DNA of 17,456 nt, from contig JALQVQ010000163.1 in the NCBI GenBank assembly GCA_023260315.1, positions 1-17,456 of the forward strand, read 5' to 3'. Below are positions 4,245 through 17,456 of the stretch, in pieces. This DNA is from Burkholderiaceae bacterium (lineage in GTDB: Bacteria > Pseudomonadota > Gammaproteobacteria > Burkholderiales > Burkholderiaceae_C). Under the pieces are notes generated by a model that had not been told where the DNA came from, ran no database searches, and saw only the letters and a program-made list of their open reading frames with translations. The stretch's first letter is position 1. Every line of letters starts with the position of its first letter. Made by a program: the position numbers and the translations under genes.

Positions 4245-4286
4245 AGCGATCGGGAGCGAGCAGGTTCGTCAGCGTAAAGGCGTATT

Positions 4287-5969
4287 TTAGTCCTTTGCAG
4301 CGACCTCTGAGCCCACTTGGCTCGACTCAATGGCCTCAAGAGTGTGGCTGGCGAGGAGCAATAAAAAACCGGTTCTCGTCATCAGAGAGGCAGGCTGGGG
4401 TTGGAGATCCCTTACATGGACCTCGATGTTTGAGCGCTTCAACTCGGCGAGCCATGTTTTCAGAGCGTCCAGCCCCGTGGTGTCCAGTGATATCAGGCGC
4501 CGCGCGTCTAAATAAATGGCACACCCGTGCGGCAAAGATTGCGGCAGACGCGTCAGGGCATCCAGTTTGCCAATCACGCCGAAGAACAGACTGCCGTACA
4601 GAACAACATCGACTCGCGCGTCGCTGGTGCGCTTGATCTGGACATTGAAGATGCCGCTTTGACGTTTGATAAACAGCACAAATGCGAGGACCAAGCCGAA
4701 CTCAATGGCGAGCGTGAGGTCGAACACCACGGTGATTAAGAACGTTGAAAGCAGCATGGCGCGGTAGTGTCCCGAGTACTGCTTCAACGCACCGAAAGCA
4801 TGCCACTCGCCCATATTCCAGGCGACAAAGATCAAAATGCCCGCCAGGACCGACAGCGGGATATAACTCGCCAATGGCGCCGCCACCAGCACGATGGCGG
4901 CCAATGTGATGGCGTGCACGATGCCAGCGATGGGTGAGCGGGCACCCGCGCGTATGTTGGTCACCGTGCGCGCGATGGTCCCTGTTGCGGGCATTCCGCC
5001 AATCATTGGCAATGCCGCGTTGGCAATGCCTTGAGCCATCAACTCTTGGTTGGGATCATGCTTGGGGCAGTCGCTGAGCTGATCGGCCACGCGCGCGCAG
5101 AGCAATGATTCGATGGCCCCAAGCATCGTCAGCGTGATGATGGGTAGCACGAGCTGTTTGGCCTCAACCCAAGAGAAATGTGGCCAGGCCAGTGTGGGGA
5201 GATCACGGGGAATAGCCCCAAACCGCTGACCAATGGTCTCGACGGGCAACCCAAACAGCCAAGCCAATGCAGTCAGTGTCACCAAGGCCACGATCGGCCC
5301 CGGTACACGCCCTGTTATTTTGAGGCGGCCGCCCGTGCGCGGCAGCTGTGACAGTTTTGGCCATAGCCACAGACACATGAAACAACACACCGTTAGCGCG
5401 AAAGCATACGGGTTGAAGGTGTTGATATGGGTCCAAATGGTCGACATTTGTGCGAAGAAATCGCCTGGCATTTTCTCGATTTCAAGTCCCAAAAAGTCAC
5501 GCAATTGGGAGACGAAAATGAGAACAGCGATCCCATTGGTGAACCCGATGACGATGCTGACAGGCACATAGCGCACCAAGCTTCCGAGGCGCAGCCAGCC
5601 CATGACAAACAGCAGGCACCCCGAAGCGCTGGTTGCGATCAGCAGGCCGTTAACACCGAAGCGCTCAACGATGCCGTAAACCACGACGATGAAGGCACCC
5701 GCAGGACCGCCGATTTGCACCGATGAGCCGCCAAAAAAAGCGATCAGGAAGCCACCGAGGATGGCCGTCCACAAACCGGCTTGGGGTGTCAAGCCACTGG
5801 CAATCGCAAAGGCCATCGCCAGTGGGAGGGCGACGATGCCCACAGTGATGCCGGCACCGACGTCGCTCTGCAAGTCGCTGCGGCTGTATGCACTGACATG
5901 CGCCCAAAGGCGTGGGCGGAAGCGCCAGCGAGGTGGCGATGCCGTGATGACAGGCGAATCGAGTGACAT
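4287..5969 (-). CDS. SulP family inorganic anion transporter with C-terminal STAS domain
   Basis: This is a 560-residue inner-membrane transporter of the SLC26/SulP family, whose bacterial members move sulfate, bicarbonate or C4-dicarboxylates. The transmembrane core covers roughly residues 35-425. It contains the early-helix block GITVGIVALPLAMAFAIASG and the anion-site region FFGGSSVQIGGPAGAFIVVV. A cytoplasmic STAS domain fills about residues 440-550, with the nucleotide-loop motif DTTG at 496-499. Length and domain order match E. coli DauA (about 559 residues). The substrate cannot be read from sequence: no carbonic anhydrase or sulfate-assimilation gene lies beside it to hint at bicarbonate or sulfate. 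It follows metG by 39 bases and precedes the DUF3460 gene by 42, so read-through from metG is plausible. Confidence 0.95.
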   Translation of the reverse strand: MSLDSPVITASPPRWRFRPRLWAHVSAYSRSDLQSDVGAGITVGIVALPLAMAFAIASGLTPQAGLWTAILGGFLIAFFGGSSVQIGGPAGAFIVVVYGIVERFGVNGLLIATSASGCLLFVMGWLRLGSLVRYVPVSIVIGFTNGIAVLIFVSQLRDFLGLEIEKMPGDFFAQMSTIWTHINTFNPYAFALTVCCFMCLWLWPKLSQLPRTGGRLKITGRVPGPIVALVTLTALAWLFGLPVETIGQRFGAIPRDLPTLAWPHFSWVEAKQLVLPIITLTMLGAIESLLCARVADQLSDCPKHDPNQELMAQGIANAALPMIGGMPATGTIARTVTNIRAGARSPIAGIVHAITLAAIVLVAAPLASYIPLSVLAGILIFVAWNMGEWHAFGALKQYSGHYRAMLLSTFLITVVFDLTLAIEFGLVLAFVLFIKRQSGIFNVQIKRTSDARVDVVLYGSLFFGVIGKLDALTRLPQSLPHGCAIYLDARRLISLDTTGLDALKTWLAELKRSNIEVHVRDLQPQPASLMTRTGFLLLLASHTLEAIESSQVGSEVAAKD

Positions 5970-8234: not shown

Positions 8235-10853
8235 ATGAATGTTTCGCCGACCCCAGCCAGCGCCTCGCCCCCATCAAGCCCACGCCGCCGTATTGAGCCG
8301 CCGATCTGGCAGCTGGCCTGGCGCAATGGCGTGCGTGACTGGCGTGCGGGTCGGTGGCGCCTCATGGTGGTGGCCGTCGCGTTGGCTGTATCGGCGTTAA
8401 CGGCTGTTGGGTTTTTTGCGGATCGGTTGCAAGCGGGGTTGTCTCGGGATGCGCTGGCGCTGTTGGGTGGCGACGCCGTTCTCCGCAGTGATGAGGCCCC
8501 CGCAGACCAGTGGCGTGATGCCGCTCGTGAATGGGGCCTTCAGCAAAGCGTATCGCTCACATTTCCCACAATGGCCCGCGCGCCCGACGAGCGGGGCGGC
8601 GATGCGCGGTTGGTTGCTTTCAAAGCGGTCGATGATGCGTACCCCTTGCGCGGCCAGTTGCGCGTGAGCGATGGGGCAGTGTCTGAGGCTTTGACGCAGG
8701 ACAAAGTGGTGAGGCGCGGACCTGCCGTTGGCGAAGCGTGGGCTGAGCCCAGCTTGGCGGATGCGTTGGGGCTGCGGGTTGGGGACACGCTGCTACTGGG
8801 AAGCAAGGCCTTCACCCTGACCCAGCTGCTGACCCAGGAATCAGACCGTGGCGGTGGTTTTTCGAGCTTTTCGCCTCGCGTGATGATCAATTTGGCTGAC
8901 GTCGCAGCGACGCAACTGGTCCAGCCGGCCAGCCGCGTGTCTTGGCGCTTGGCGGTCGCCGGCGACGCGGTAGCGGTCAAACGCTTCGAAGATGCGGTGA
9001 CGCAGGCCATCGAAAAGCAACCGGTGAACGATGGCATGCGACTGGAGACGCTTGAGTCGGGTCGGCCAGGGACCCTCGAAACCCTGAACCGAGCCGAGAA
9101 ATTTTTGAACCTTGTCGCCATGCTCACGGCACTCTTGTGCGCGGTTGCCGTGGCAATTGGTGCGCGAGGCTTTGCCGCGACGCAGCTGGATGCCTGCGCC
9201 ATGTTGCGCGTTTTCGGCGTGTCGCAGGCCACCATCGCGCGGGCCTTCATGCTTGAATTTTTTGCGGTTGGCGTCCTCGCCACTTTGCTCGGCGTCGCCG
9301 TTGGCTGGTCGGTGCACTGGGTCTTCGTCGCACTTTTGTCGGGTTTGGTGAATGCCAGCTTGCCCGCAGCGTCGATGTGGCCGGCGCTCACGGGCATGGG
9401 CGTCGGGCTCAGCCTCATGGCCGCCTTCGGGGTATCGCCCATTCTGCAGTTGGCGAAGGTCCCCCCTTTGCGTGTGATACGCCGTGATGTGGGGCAAATG
9501 CAGCCCGCTTCAACGGCTTTGCTCGTTGTCAGCGTGTTGGTGTTTGCCGCATTGCTGATGGTCGTCAGTCGTGACGCGTTGATGGGAGGCTTGGCGGTGG
9601 TTGGCTTTGCAGCGGCCTTGGGCTTCTTCGCCGGCTTGGCGTGGTTGGCCGTGTGGTTGCTTCGCCGCTCTGTGAATGAACAAACAGCACCCCGCTGGCT
9701 CATCTTGGCCACCCGTCAGGTCGCCGCTCGCCCCGGTTTAGCCGTGTTGCAAGTGAGTGCCTTGTCGGTCGGTATCCTCGCGTTGTCGATTTTGGTACTC
9801 CTGCGTACCGATTTGATTGCCAGTTGGCGACAGGCAACGCCAGCCGATGCGCCGACTCGTTTTGTGATCAATATTCAGCCCGATCAGGCGGAAGCTTTTA
9901 AGGCGCAGCTCGTTGCCGCGGGCGTTCGGGATTTTGATTGGTATCCAATGTTTCGGGGGCGCCTGGTCGGGATCAATGGTGTAACGGTTCGATCTGAAAA
10001 TTTCGATGGTGAACGCGCGCAGCGGTTGGTGAGGCGGGAGTTCAACCTGTCCCACAGCGGAACGATTCCCCAACACAATGAAATCGTCAAAGGGGCATGG
10101 ACCGCGGGCGAAAAAGGTCAAATCAGCATCGAAGAAGGTCTGGCCGAGACCCTGGGCCTCAAGCTGGGTGATGCGCTCACCTTTGATGTTGCGGGAGAGG
10201 CCATCGAGGCGCGGATATCTGACTTCCGCAAGGTGAACTGGGCAAGCATGCGGGTGAACTTTTTCGCCATGTTCCCAGTCAGCGATATGCCTGACTTGCC
10301 CATCACCTACATCGCGGCGTTCAAAGCGCCAGAGGGCTTGGTTCGTGATGAGGCCGGCATTCAACGGTCATTTGATAACCAGTTGCTCCGCCTGTTCCCC
10401 AACATCACCAACATCGATACCTCAGCAACATTGCGACAGGTACAGCGCATTTTGGATCAGGTGATCGGTGCCATCGAGTTTTTGTTTGCGTTCAGCGTGA
10501 TAGCGGGGCTGGTCGTCTTGTTTGCCGCTATCTCCCATACGCGGGCAGAAAGAACGCGTGAATACGCGATTCTTCGAGCGATGGGCGCATCCAGTGGGTT
10601 GCTGCGCCAGGTGCAGCGCGCAGAGCTCATCGGCGTCGGTGCGTTGGCAGGGGGGATGGCCAGTACGGCTGCCATGCTCATTGGCTGGGCATTGGCCAAG
10701 TTGGTGTTCGAATTTCCGTGGATTCCACCGTGGTGGGTTCCATTTGCAGGCGCCTTTGCCGGTGCGTTGTTGGCCATGCTGGCAGGTTGGTGGCGGCTGC
10801 GCGATTTGCTGAACACGCCTGCCTGGCAAACGTTACGGCTGCGTGCCGATTAA
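8235..10853 (+). CDS. FtsX/YbbP-type ABC transporter permease (two FtsX domains)
   Basis: This large inner-membrane permease has 872 residues from the ATG at 8235 and resembles E. coli YbbP (about 804). It belongs to the MacB/LolCE/FtsX type VII group, whose members transmit force to the periplasm, often for lipoprotein or lipid handling. About ten membrane segments are visible: one at 43-61, three near 291-404, two near 428-476, one near 502-523 and three near 746-853. Two large periplasmic domains lie between them (about 62-290 and 524-745). Both FtsX domains carry the LRVFG or LRAMGAS element that follows the first helix. The N-terminus before the first helix is Pro/Ser-rich and then basic. 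An in-frame GTG at 8199 would add 12 residues; neither start has a strong Shine-Dalgarno site. No ATPase gene accompanies it here, so its partner must be encoded elsewhere. The substrate is unknown. Confidence 0.9.
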   Translation: MNVSPTPASASPPSSPRRRIEPPIWQLAWRNGVRDWRAGRWRLMVVAVALAVSALTAVGFFADRLQAGLSRDALALLGGDAVLRSDEAPADQWRDAAREWGLQQSVSLTFPTMARAPDERGGDARLVAFKAVDDAYPLRGQLRVSDGAVSEALTQDKVVRRGPAVGEAWAEPSLADALGLRVGDTLLLGSKAFTLTQLLTQESDRGGGFSSFSPRVMINLADVAATQLVQPASRVSWRLAVAGDAVAVKRFEDAVTQAIEKQPVNDGMRLETLESGRPGTLETLNRAEKFLNLVAMLTALLCAVAVAIGARGFAATQLDACAMLRVFGVSQATIARAFMLEFFAVGVLATLLGVAVGWSVHWVFVALLSGLVNASLPAASMWPALTGMGVGLSLMAAFGVSPILQLAKVPPLRVIRRDVGQMQPASTALLVVSVLVFAALLMVVSRDALMGGLAVVGFAAALGFFAGLAWLAVWLLRRSVNEQTAPRWLILATRQVAARPGLAVLQVSALSVGILALSILVLLRTDLIASWRQATPADAPTRFVINIQPDQAEAFKAQLVAAGVRDFDWYPMFRGRLVGINGVTVRSENFDGERAQRLVRREFNLSHSGTIPQHNEIVKGAWTAGEKGQISIEEGLAETLGLKLGDALTFDVAGEAIEARISDFRKVNWASMRVNFFAMFPVSDMPDLPITYIAAFKAPEGLVRDEAGIQRSFDNQLLRLFPNITNIDTSATLRQVQRILDQVIGAIEFLFAFSVIAGLVVLFAAISHTRAERTREYAILRAMGASSGLLRQVQRAELIGVGALAGGMASTAAMLIGWALAKLVFEFPWIPPWWVPFAGAFAGALLAMLAGWWRLRDLLNTPAWQTLRLRAD

Positions 10854-12750: not shown

Positions 12751-12858
12751 TGCCTTGTTTATATCGATTCAATCGGTGTCAATACAGAGCCTTTACCCGT
12801 GGATGTTGCCACCTATACCAGCGCCACAAGGCGTCACAGACGTCACCTCGAGACCCTT

Positions 12859-13308
12859 ATGACCATCATTGACAGCTGTTCGTTTTTAACGCTCCATTAC
12901 CGAATGTGTGGGCCAGATGGCCAAGAGGTGATCAGTACCTTTGGCGGGATGCCTGCGACCTTGAGCATGGGGGGTGGCCAGCTTTCCCCCGCGATTGAGC
13001 AACACTTGATTGGGCTCGACGAGGGCACAAAGGCCACTTTTGAGCTGGCACCCGGCGATGCCTTTGGACCCCACAATCCAGAGGCTGTTCAGTGGGTGGC
13101 ACGCAGCATGTTGAATCAGCTGGGTGACCCTGATGAGCGTTACAACCCTGGCGACGTGGTGCAGTTTCCAACGCCGGATGGCCTTGGACAATATGCGGGC
13201 GCCGTTGTGGCTTGCAAAGATGACGGTTCAGCGGTACTTTTTGATTTCAACCACCCGTTAGCCGGTCAGGCGGTGACGTTTGAGGTCCATGTGATTGGGG
13301 TTCTGTGA
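12859..13308 (+). CDS. fkpB: FKBP-type peptidyl-prolyl cis-trans isomerase, SlpA/FkpB type
   Basis: This 149-residue protein catalyses cis-trans isomerisation of X-Pro bonds and acts as a chaperone in the cytoplasm. Its length is the same as I recall for E. coli FkpB (SlpA). Features are the FKBP half LTLHYRMCGPDGQEV, the EQHLIGLDEGTKATFELAPGDAFG block that begins the inserted flap (IF) domain, and the strongly conserved LFDFNHPLAGQAVTFEV near the C-terminus. The frame is open far upstream through the antisense of radC; I chose the ATG at 12859 because homology begins there. The upstream part of that open frame is a shadow. The stop overlaps the start of ispH by one base (TGATG), the same fkpB-ispH pairing as in E. 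coli, suggesting translational coupling. Confidence 0.94.
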   Translation: MTIIDSCSFLTLHYRMCGPDGQEVISTFGGMPATLSMGGGQLSPAIEQHLIGLDEGTKATFELAPGDAFGPHNPEAVQWVARSMLNQLGDPDERYNPGDVVQFPTPDGLGQYAGAVVACKDDGSAVLFDFNHPLAGQAVTFEVHVIGVL

Positions 13309-16338: not shown

Positions 16339-17376
16339 TCAGTACGCCAAACCGATGGCCGCACGGACGTCTCGCATGGTCTCTTGGGCGACGGCACGGG
16401 CCTGATCGGTACCGGCGTCGATGATGTCTCGGACGATGCTGGGGTTGGTCACGTAGGGCTCCGCACGGGCCAGCATGGGCTGCTGTTCACGCAGGACCGC
16501 ATCGATGACCGGCTGTTTGCATTCGAGGCAACCAATCCCTGCGCTGCGACAACCCTTATCCACCCAAACCTGTGTCTCGGCGGGGCTGTAAACCTTGTGG
16601 AACTGCCAGACAGGGCATCGGCTCGGGTCACCCACATCGGTTCTTTTCACACGCGCCGGGTCGGTGGGCATGCGTTTGATTTTTTGTTCGATGCTGGCTT
16701 TGTCTTCGCGAATGGCGATGGCGTTGTTGTAGCTCTTGCTCATTTTCGCGCCATCCAAGCCGGGCAGACGGCTGGCTTCGGTCAGCAGGGCTTGCGGCTC
16801 CACCAAGACCGCTTTGCCGGTCCCCTTGAAATACCCCTGCAAACGTTCTTTTTCGGAAGCGTCGAGCGCTGGGTGTTGGTTGATGAAGCCCATCGCGCCC
16901 TCAAGTGACGGTTGGTCGCCGGTTTCTTGAAACTTCTTGCGTGATTTTTCAAATCGCTTTGCGGCATCTTTACCCAGTTTCTCCAGACTGGCCTCGACCC
17001 GCTGGGCAAAGTCCGCTTCGCGCCCGTAGAGGTGGTTGAAGCGTCGTGCAGCCTCTCGTGTCAGTTCGACATGGCTGGCCTGATCTTCGCCAACGGGGAC
17101 GTGCTTGGCCCGGTATATCAGGATATCCGCGGCTTGTAGCAGGGGATAGCCGAGGAAACCGTAGGTGGTGAGGTCCTTGTCCTTCAACTTCTCTTGTTGA
17201 TCTTTGTAGGTGGGGACACGCTCCAACCACCCGATGGGTGTGCCCATGGCCAACAAGGTGAAAAGTTCGGCGTGCTCGGGAATCCGGCTCTGCAAGAACA
17301 TGGTGCATTGCGAGGGATCAAGACCCGTGGCAAGCCAGTCAATCACCATCTCATAGACGTTTTTTTCGATGACCTC
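16339..17376 (-). CDS. trpS: Tryptophanyl-tRNA synthetase, N-terminal part missing
   Basis: This class I synthetase charges tRNA-Trp with tryptophan. About 345 residues of the C-terminal part are visible. The recognisable stretch begins at VIEKNVYEMVIDWLATGLDP, which in complete enzymes comes after the N-terminal Rossmann strand and HIGH-like motif, so those are absent here. Present are IPEHAELFTLLAMGTPIGWLE, GFLGYPLLQAADILIYRA, the tRNA/ATP region VPVGEDQASHVELTREAARRFN and the KMSKS loop (16732-16746). A long insertion lies before the KMSKS loop, and a CRSAGIGCLECK block with three Cys lies near the C-terminus; both are typical of the long Burkholderiales form as I remember it. An in-frame ATG exists at 17349, but it is an internal Met of the family and not the true start. 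Upstream, the frame runs into sequence that is not TrpRS. Confidence 0.93.
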   Translation of the reverse strand, partial: EVIEKNVYEMVIDWLATGLDPSQCTMFLQSRIPEHAELFTLLAMGTPIGWLERVPTYKDQQEKLKDKDLTTYGFLGYPLLQAADILIYRAKHVPVGEDQASHVELTREAARRFNHLYGREADFAQRVEASLEKLGKDAAKRFEKSRKKFQETGDQPSLEGAMGFINQHPALDASEKERLQGYFKGTGKAVLVEPQALLTEASRLPGLDGAKMSKSYNNAIAIREDKASIEQKIKRMPTDPARVKRTDVGDPSRCPVWQFHKVYSPAETQVWVDKGCRSAGIGCLECKQPVIDAVLREQQPMLARAEPYVTNPSIVRDIIDAGTDQARAVAQETMRDVRAAIGLAY

Positions 17377-17455
17377 GCGATTGATGTTCAGGCCGTCCGG
17401 CGCACACCCAATGGAGATGACTTCAGCCCCAAGCTCATGAAAAACACGCGGTGCG
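17371..17455 (-). pseudogene. Fragment of phosphoglucosamine mutase (GlmM) fused in frame to trpS
   Basis: Reading leftward from the window edge, the frame that becomes trpS encodes APRVFHELGAEVISIGC followed by APDGLNINREV. This aligns block by block with the internal GlmM stretch that in E. coli reads APNVLRELGANVIAIGC and then EPNGVNINAEV. In GlmM the next residues should be GAT; here the frame instead continues as the IEKNVYEM of TrpRS. GlmM converts glucosamine-6-phosphate to glucosamine-1-phosphate for peptidoglycan precursors, but only about 27 internal residues are visible, with no active-site Ser. The switch falls at about 17368-17376, within or next to the shared Glu-Val codons. It may be a chimeric read or misassembly at a contig end, or a real rearrangement. 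The GlmM assignment rests on my memory of the family. Confidence 0.8.
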
Positions 17456-17456
17456 A

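Follow-up and report, generated by a model that had tools for sequence, protein, structure and literature searches.

Does the right edge of this contig carry a genuine joint between glmM and trpS, or were the two genes brought together only on the way to the finished assembly? The window, that is, the whole stretch of DNA analysed here (17,456 b), is an entire contig (C19), and so the joint sits at a true contig end rather than at an arbitrary window edge. The contig belongs to a draft genome of 317 contigs that total 1,594,888 b (listed completeness 66.94%, contamination 3.03%), and its left edge (positions 2-412) holds the ordinary C-terminus of NadC (TIGR00078). Our answer is that the right contig end is almost certainly an artefact and not biology, trpS having been wrongly extended into glmM.

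Positions 16339-17454 on the minus strand form a single open frame of 371 residues, whose translation begins APRVFHELGAEVISIGCAPDGLNINREVIEKNVYEM. Along this strand, 24 GlmM codons are followed by Asn-Arg-Glu-Val (NREV) and then by tryptophanyl-tRNA synthetase (TrpRS) sequence up to the stop. The parts are the following, where P0002 and P0123 are the intact TrpRS and GlmM described below.

16339 to 17370, minus strand: 3' part of trpS, encoding TrpRS residues 70-412 and the stop (above the NF008922 cut-off; identity to P0002).
17371 to 17382, minus strand: junction zone Asn-Arg-Glu-Val, in the same codon phase in both intact proteins (P0002 residues 66-69; P0123 residues 214-217).
17383 to 17454, minus strand: glmM fragment of 24 codons, GlmM residues 190-213 (TIGR01455 match; identity to P0123).
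17455 to 17456, minus strand: two leftover bases, with which the contig ends at 17,456.
17347 to 17349, minus strand: in-frame ATG, a possible false trpS start, which is internal Met 77 in the numbering of the intact TrpRS.

In the family searches, each half of the frame went to its own family. In NCBIfam, frame residues 1-28 match positions 187-214 of the glmM model TIGR01455 (E 6.2e-6), at a score of 25.2 bits that is far under the cut-off of 447.55, as the piece has no more than 28 residues, against the 442 positions of an intact GlmM. Residues 26-371 match positions 54-399 of the tryptophan--tRNA ligase PRK12283 model, NF008922 (E 5e-173), with 575.6 bits against a cut-off of 572, and include the KMSKS motif at frame residue 237. 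Pfam matches the TrpRS part of the frame; the 37-residue edge piece, searched by itself, gave no match.

Intact proteins corresponding to both halves are on record. First, the TrpRS that is closest in the protein collection, among the matches listed, is P0002 (412 aa; eight member sequences on 12 contigs, the longest of 130,572 b), whose residues 66-412 equal frame residues 25-371 without a single difference over 347 residues, starting at Asn 66. TrpRS P0003-P0008 differ from the frame at one to three of those residues, and all seven proteins, P0002-P0008, read HYANREVIEKNVYEM. The contig lacks residues 1-65 of P0002, and with them the HLGH stretch at residue 30, which we take to be the class I signature in TrpRS. 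Second, residues 190-217 of the GlmM P0123 (442 aa, on a 72,117-b contig), which reads DGLNINREVGAT, are identical to frame residues 1-28 (28/28); among the 119 motif-bearing GlmM, 25/25 is seen in P0123 only. Judged by these identities, a 28-residue match to a real GlmM is not a matter of chance, and we infer that the window's own species is the source of both intact proteins. The central claim of the sequence-only reading, an in-frame glmM-trpS chimera at the right edge, is thus upheld by near-exact identities on both sides (28/28 to P0123; 347/347 to P0002).

The position of the joint needs some refinement. It had been placed at about 17368-17376, which lies at the TrpRS side of the zone that both genes share, now set at 17371-17382. 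A shared stretch at the joint is indeed present, although the Glu-Val and about six bases first proposed for it understate its extent, since the whole of NREV, four residues, is common to both intact proteins. It may span up to 12 nt, a figure that is an upper bound, the exact number of identical bases depending on the codons of both intact genes. The Arg of NREV is found in 118/118 motif-matching TrpRS, the window's own included (121 sequences taken), and in 11/119 motif-matching GlmM (120 sequences taken), P0123 among them. A crossover just before the Arg codon was first suggested by the glmM loci of compared relatives, 0/15 of which have Arg at this place, but the 11/119 nearer GlmM overturned it. 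From the joint to the contig end there are 74 b.

We then asked whether the joint is found elsewhere. In 39 related genomes no fusion was detected, and the two parts of the query match separate places: TrpRS matches start at query residue 25 or later, and tail matches end by residue 46. The degenerate pattern N-I-N-x-(E/D)-(V/I/M)-I-E-(K/Q)-(N/S)-V gave no match in a collection of species genomes, and in a protein scan of the same collection the best 80 of 590 loci all match only from query residue 25 onward; both scans may pass over records of the window's own genome or of very near ones. Among the matches listed, the named loci place the neighbourhood within Burkholderiales, closest to Limnohabitans and other Comamonadaceae. 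Of 8,000 candidates scored in the protein collection, 7,975 passed; none of the 120 of these that were listed covers the GlmM part, with coverage of at most 94%. GlmM itself scores above the family cut-off in 37 of the 40 genomes searched, the window's genome included.

The searches also gave some side observations. A metagenome bin titled Bordetella parapertussis (L095), which is listed amid Burkholderiales water bins, has a TrpRS 79% identical to the window's, and its title looks doubtful. The glmM matches of two same-genus drafts, L053 (G005:C104) and L051 (G009:C421), have one internal stop each (TAA and TGA). G009 has a second glmM above the cut-off on a different contig.

Within the window's own genome, a bin that is 67% complete and in which contigs under 3 kb were masked, neither the protein searches nor those with the trpS/tyrS and glmM families turned up an intact copy of trpS or glmM in the readable part. 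They returned the window's own pieces, a weak glmM-model match in C228 (18.9 bits, below the cut-off), and a match in C60 to a W/Y-family synthetase, presumably TyrRS. At the DNA level, with the same masking, neither the region upstream of and into trpS of the relative G008 (best E 0.025) nor its glmM with neighbouring genes (best E 0.175) gave a convincing match. The lack of intact copies among the readable contigs counts against an artefact, although, with this masking and this completeness, it is no proof that the genome is without them.

Other ends of the same assembly provide a context for this joint. Our survey covered the first 120 of the 317 contigs, of which 38 were masked (none longer than 2,934 b) and 82 were readable, giving 164 ends with the window's two included. 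Besides the window's, five of the 164 ends depart from sequence that is common to another contig or to the contig's own other end and continue into a different tail, the overlap method detecting those ends whose partner is among the 82 readable contigs. Judged from open frames and composition, the partner that appears to be wrong is in each case the one given here.

C32 right end (L196, G000:C32), 13180-13246: tail of 67 b at a cation-efflux protein, whose continuation is in C60.
C111 right end (L275), 4265-4333: 69 AT-rich b, where C84 has, by eye, an apparent HisB N-terminus.
C65 right end (L229), 12855-12923: 69 AT-rich b.
C70 right end (L234), 10582-10850: 269 AT-rich b, versus C74.
C80 left end (L244), 1-124: 124 b, versus C5, which is HscB-like by eye.

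A search within the genome for the source of the C32 tail did not find it. A tail size fixed by the assembler, with 67, 69, 69 and 74 b as one class, was considered and dropped, since the other broken ends measure 124 and 269 b; we thus claim no fixed size. Left out of the count were pairs at 72-87% identity that are likely paralogues or divergent strains (C8/C24, C53/C69, C68/C95, C90/C3, C101/C33 and C108/C119), short self-matches (C60 right, C116 left), exact overlaps (C23/C42, C73/C84), and strain overlaps that reach the ends (C1/C77, C37/C105, C54/C119 and C13/C110).

Composition broadens the picture. The GC content of the last 65 b falls below the 1st percentile of 7,033 interior windows at 11 of the 164 ends, versus 1.6 expected, and further inward the number of low-GC ends is six at 65-130 b, three at 130-195 b, two at 195-260 b and one at 260-325 b. 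For a third-order Markov score below the 1st percentile, the same five steps give 16, 8, 4, 7 and 2 ends, and so by this measure the excess reaches about 260 b. Part of this excess could stem from genuine AT-rich sequence where the contigs break, or from real islands close to their ends. The window's own tail, with a GC of 0.58 and a Markov score at the 54th percentile, is not flagged by the survey, which is what would be expected if the tail came from the same or a near species. Its host-like composition, unlike the AT-rich tails elsewhere in the assembly, also counts against an artefact.

The odd ends lean to the right. At the 0.5% Markov level there are 13 of them, namely, 11 right ends (C16, C32, C34, C65, C70, C79, C91, C98, C101, C111 and C116) and two left ends (C24 and C50; p 0.022). 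The ratio is 12 to 4 at the 1% level (p 0.077) and 15 to 4 at the 2% level (p 0.019). This lean, in which orientation is that of the contigs as numbered, was found post hoc and is weak at the 1% level. As contig orientation is arbitrary, it is unexpected unless there is a software cause.

Taken as an artefact, the joint would have arisen as follows. During library making or assembly, the trpS sequence would have been extended at its end into glmM, probably that of the same or a very near strain. The switch would fall within the NREV-coding stretch of up to 12 nt, which stands in the same codon phase in both genes, so that the joint stays in frame, and the contig would stop 74 b beyond it; the cell itself would most likely have both genes, separate and intact. 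A chimera of assembly or library origin, close to the end of a contig, had been put forward from the sequence, and the evidence sustains it: 74 b separate the joint from the contig end, intact and near-identical proteins are recorded elsewhere, the joint did not recur in the searches made, and the assembly has other odd tails. Furthermore, glmM and the close TrpRS gene are at least 118 kb apart in the six relatives that have both on one contig, namely, with contigs as numbered, about 297 kb in G001, 118 kb in G007, 722 kb in G016, 1,000 kb in G030, 165 kb in G036 and 1,387 kb in G038. We infer that the joint goes back to a chimeric read or to a local mis-extension, guided by the shared stretch. 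If most of the 12 nt are identical, a simple blunt ligation would be unlikely, which is a point against the artefact.

One way to such an artefact, to which we give just short of an even chance, is a library chimera, where annealing at the shared stretch brought a trpS strand onto glmM, extension followed, and the assembler used the resulting read at a poorly covered contig end. The in-phase NREV stretch at the joint agrees with this, and so does the tail of 74 b, which is shorter than a common short read. Microhomology-induced chimeric reads, formed in library preparation from mis-annealed single strands, are described for formalin-fixed human samples in PMC8674242. The likeness lies in single strands from distant places of the genome that mis-anneal at a short shared sequence; those samples are not metagenomes, and the shared stretch of our joint is only bounded, at 12 nt or less. 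The lean of odd tails to right ends (11 to 2 at the 0.5% level, p 0.022) would not be expected from library chimeras.

The other way, whose probability we put a shade under one half, is a mis-extension by the assembler, in which no molecule with the joint existed and two reads were connected through a short word in common, in a graph step or a local extension. A word-graph assembler is suggested by exact overlaps between contigs (141 and 135 b), and a mixture of strains by overlaps at 95-98% identity (C1/C77, C37/C105, C54/C119 and C13/C110); both would favour this course of events, as would the right-end lean, with the reservation that the latter is post hoc and, at the 1% level, weak (12 to 4, p 0.077). 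However, a shared stretch of 12 nt or less is far below a word of about 141, so that one has to assume an early or local step that works with short words. For metagenome-assembled genomes, PMC7111523 reports local assembly errors and chimeric scaffolds, including rare chimeras of two organisms. Unrelated sequences are joined in an assembled contig there as they are here, but those chimeras are between two organisms, whereas the present tail, known from the contig alone, fits the same or a very near species. A library chimera and an assembler mis-extension both fit the place at a contig end, the in-frame joint at a shared stretch and the lack of recurrence, and we cannot choose between them.

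A real rearrangement in some cells, with glmM and trpS joined by an inversion or another event and the joint caught where the assembly stopped, is in our view very improbable, although some observations speak for it. There is the shared stretch at the joint, and glmM and the TrpRS gene are on opposite strands in both same-genus genomes that have them on one contig, G001 and G007, where one inversion could create such a joint (among the other four relatives, the strands are opposite in G030 and G036, and the same in G016 and G038). In PMC3411829, on spontaneous inversions in Salmonella cultures, five of the seven putative inversions tested were verified by PCR or padlock probes, and longer stretches in common were read as pointing to a true rearrangement; the threshold deduced was at least 12 bp. 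As in those joints, distant loci are brought together here, and the stretch they have in common may be of about 12 nt; the Salmonella joints were verified experimentally, whereas ours lies at a contig end and is known from the assembly alone. Against a rearrangement are the intact, near-identical copies recorded elsewhere, the failure to see the joint again in the searches made, and the distances of about 297 kb and 118 kb between the genes in G001 and G007. Moreover, trpS and glmM are believed to be essential, and a rearrangement would break both. There is thus only a slight chance that a minority of the sampled population carries a real, recent inversion-type joint guided by the NREV-coding stretch, and nothing in the evidence seems to ask for one. 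As for a working GlmM-TrpRS fusion protein, its sole point in favour is a frame that is open through the joint, and with a mid-GlmM piece in place of the first 65 TrpRS residues, HLGH included, and no such fusion in any relative searched, its likelihood, as judged from sequence, would be negligible.

Under the preferred reading, an artefact of library making or assembly, the trpS of this contig should be annotated as a 5'-truncated fragment, and neither as a protein starting at 17349 nor as a fusion; the last 74 bases are not trpS. The warning that to call the ATG at 17349 the trpS start would record a wrong, N-truncated protein is borne out, as this codon equals Met 77 of the intact protein. 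Separately, a TrpRS record of 336 aa on a 1,285-b contig (P0016) starts at the Met equivalent to this ATG, and may be a shortened start that entered the database.

If a fresh test confirmed the right-end lean of odd tails, this would speak for a cause in the software. The main value of the glmM-trpS joint is one of caution: in this draft genome, unusual composition clusters in the final 65 b of contigs, and therefore the end-cut genes of this bin should be checked against reads.
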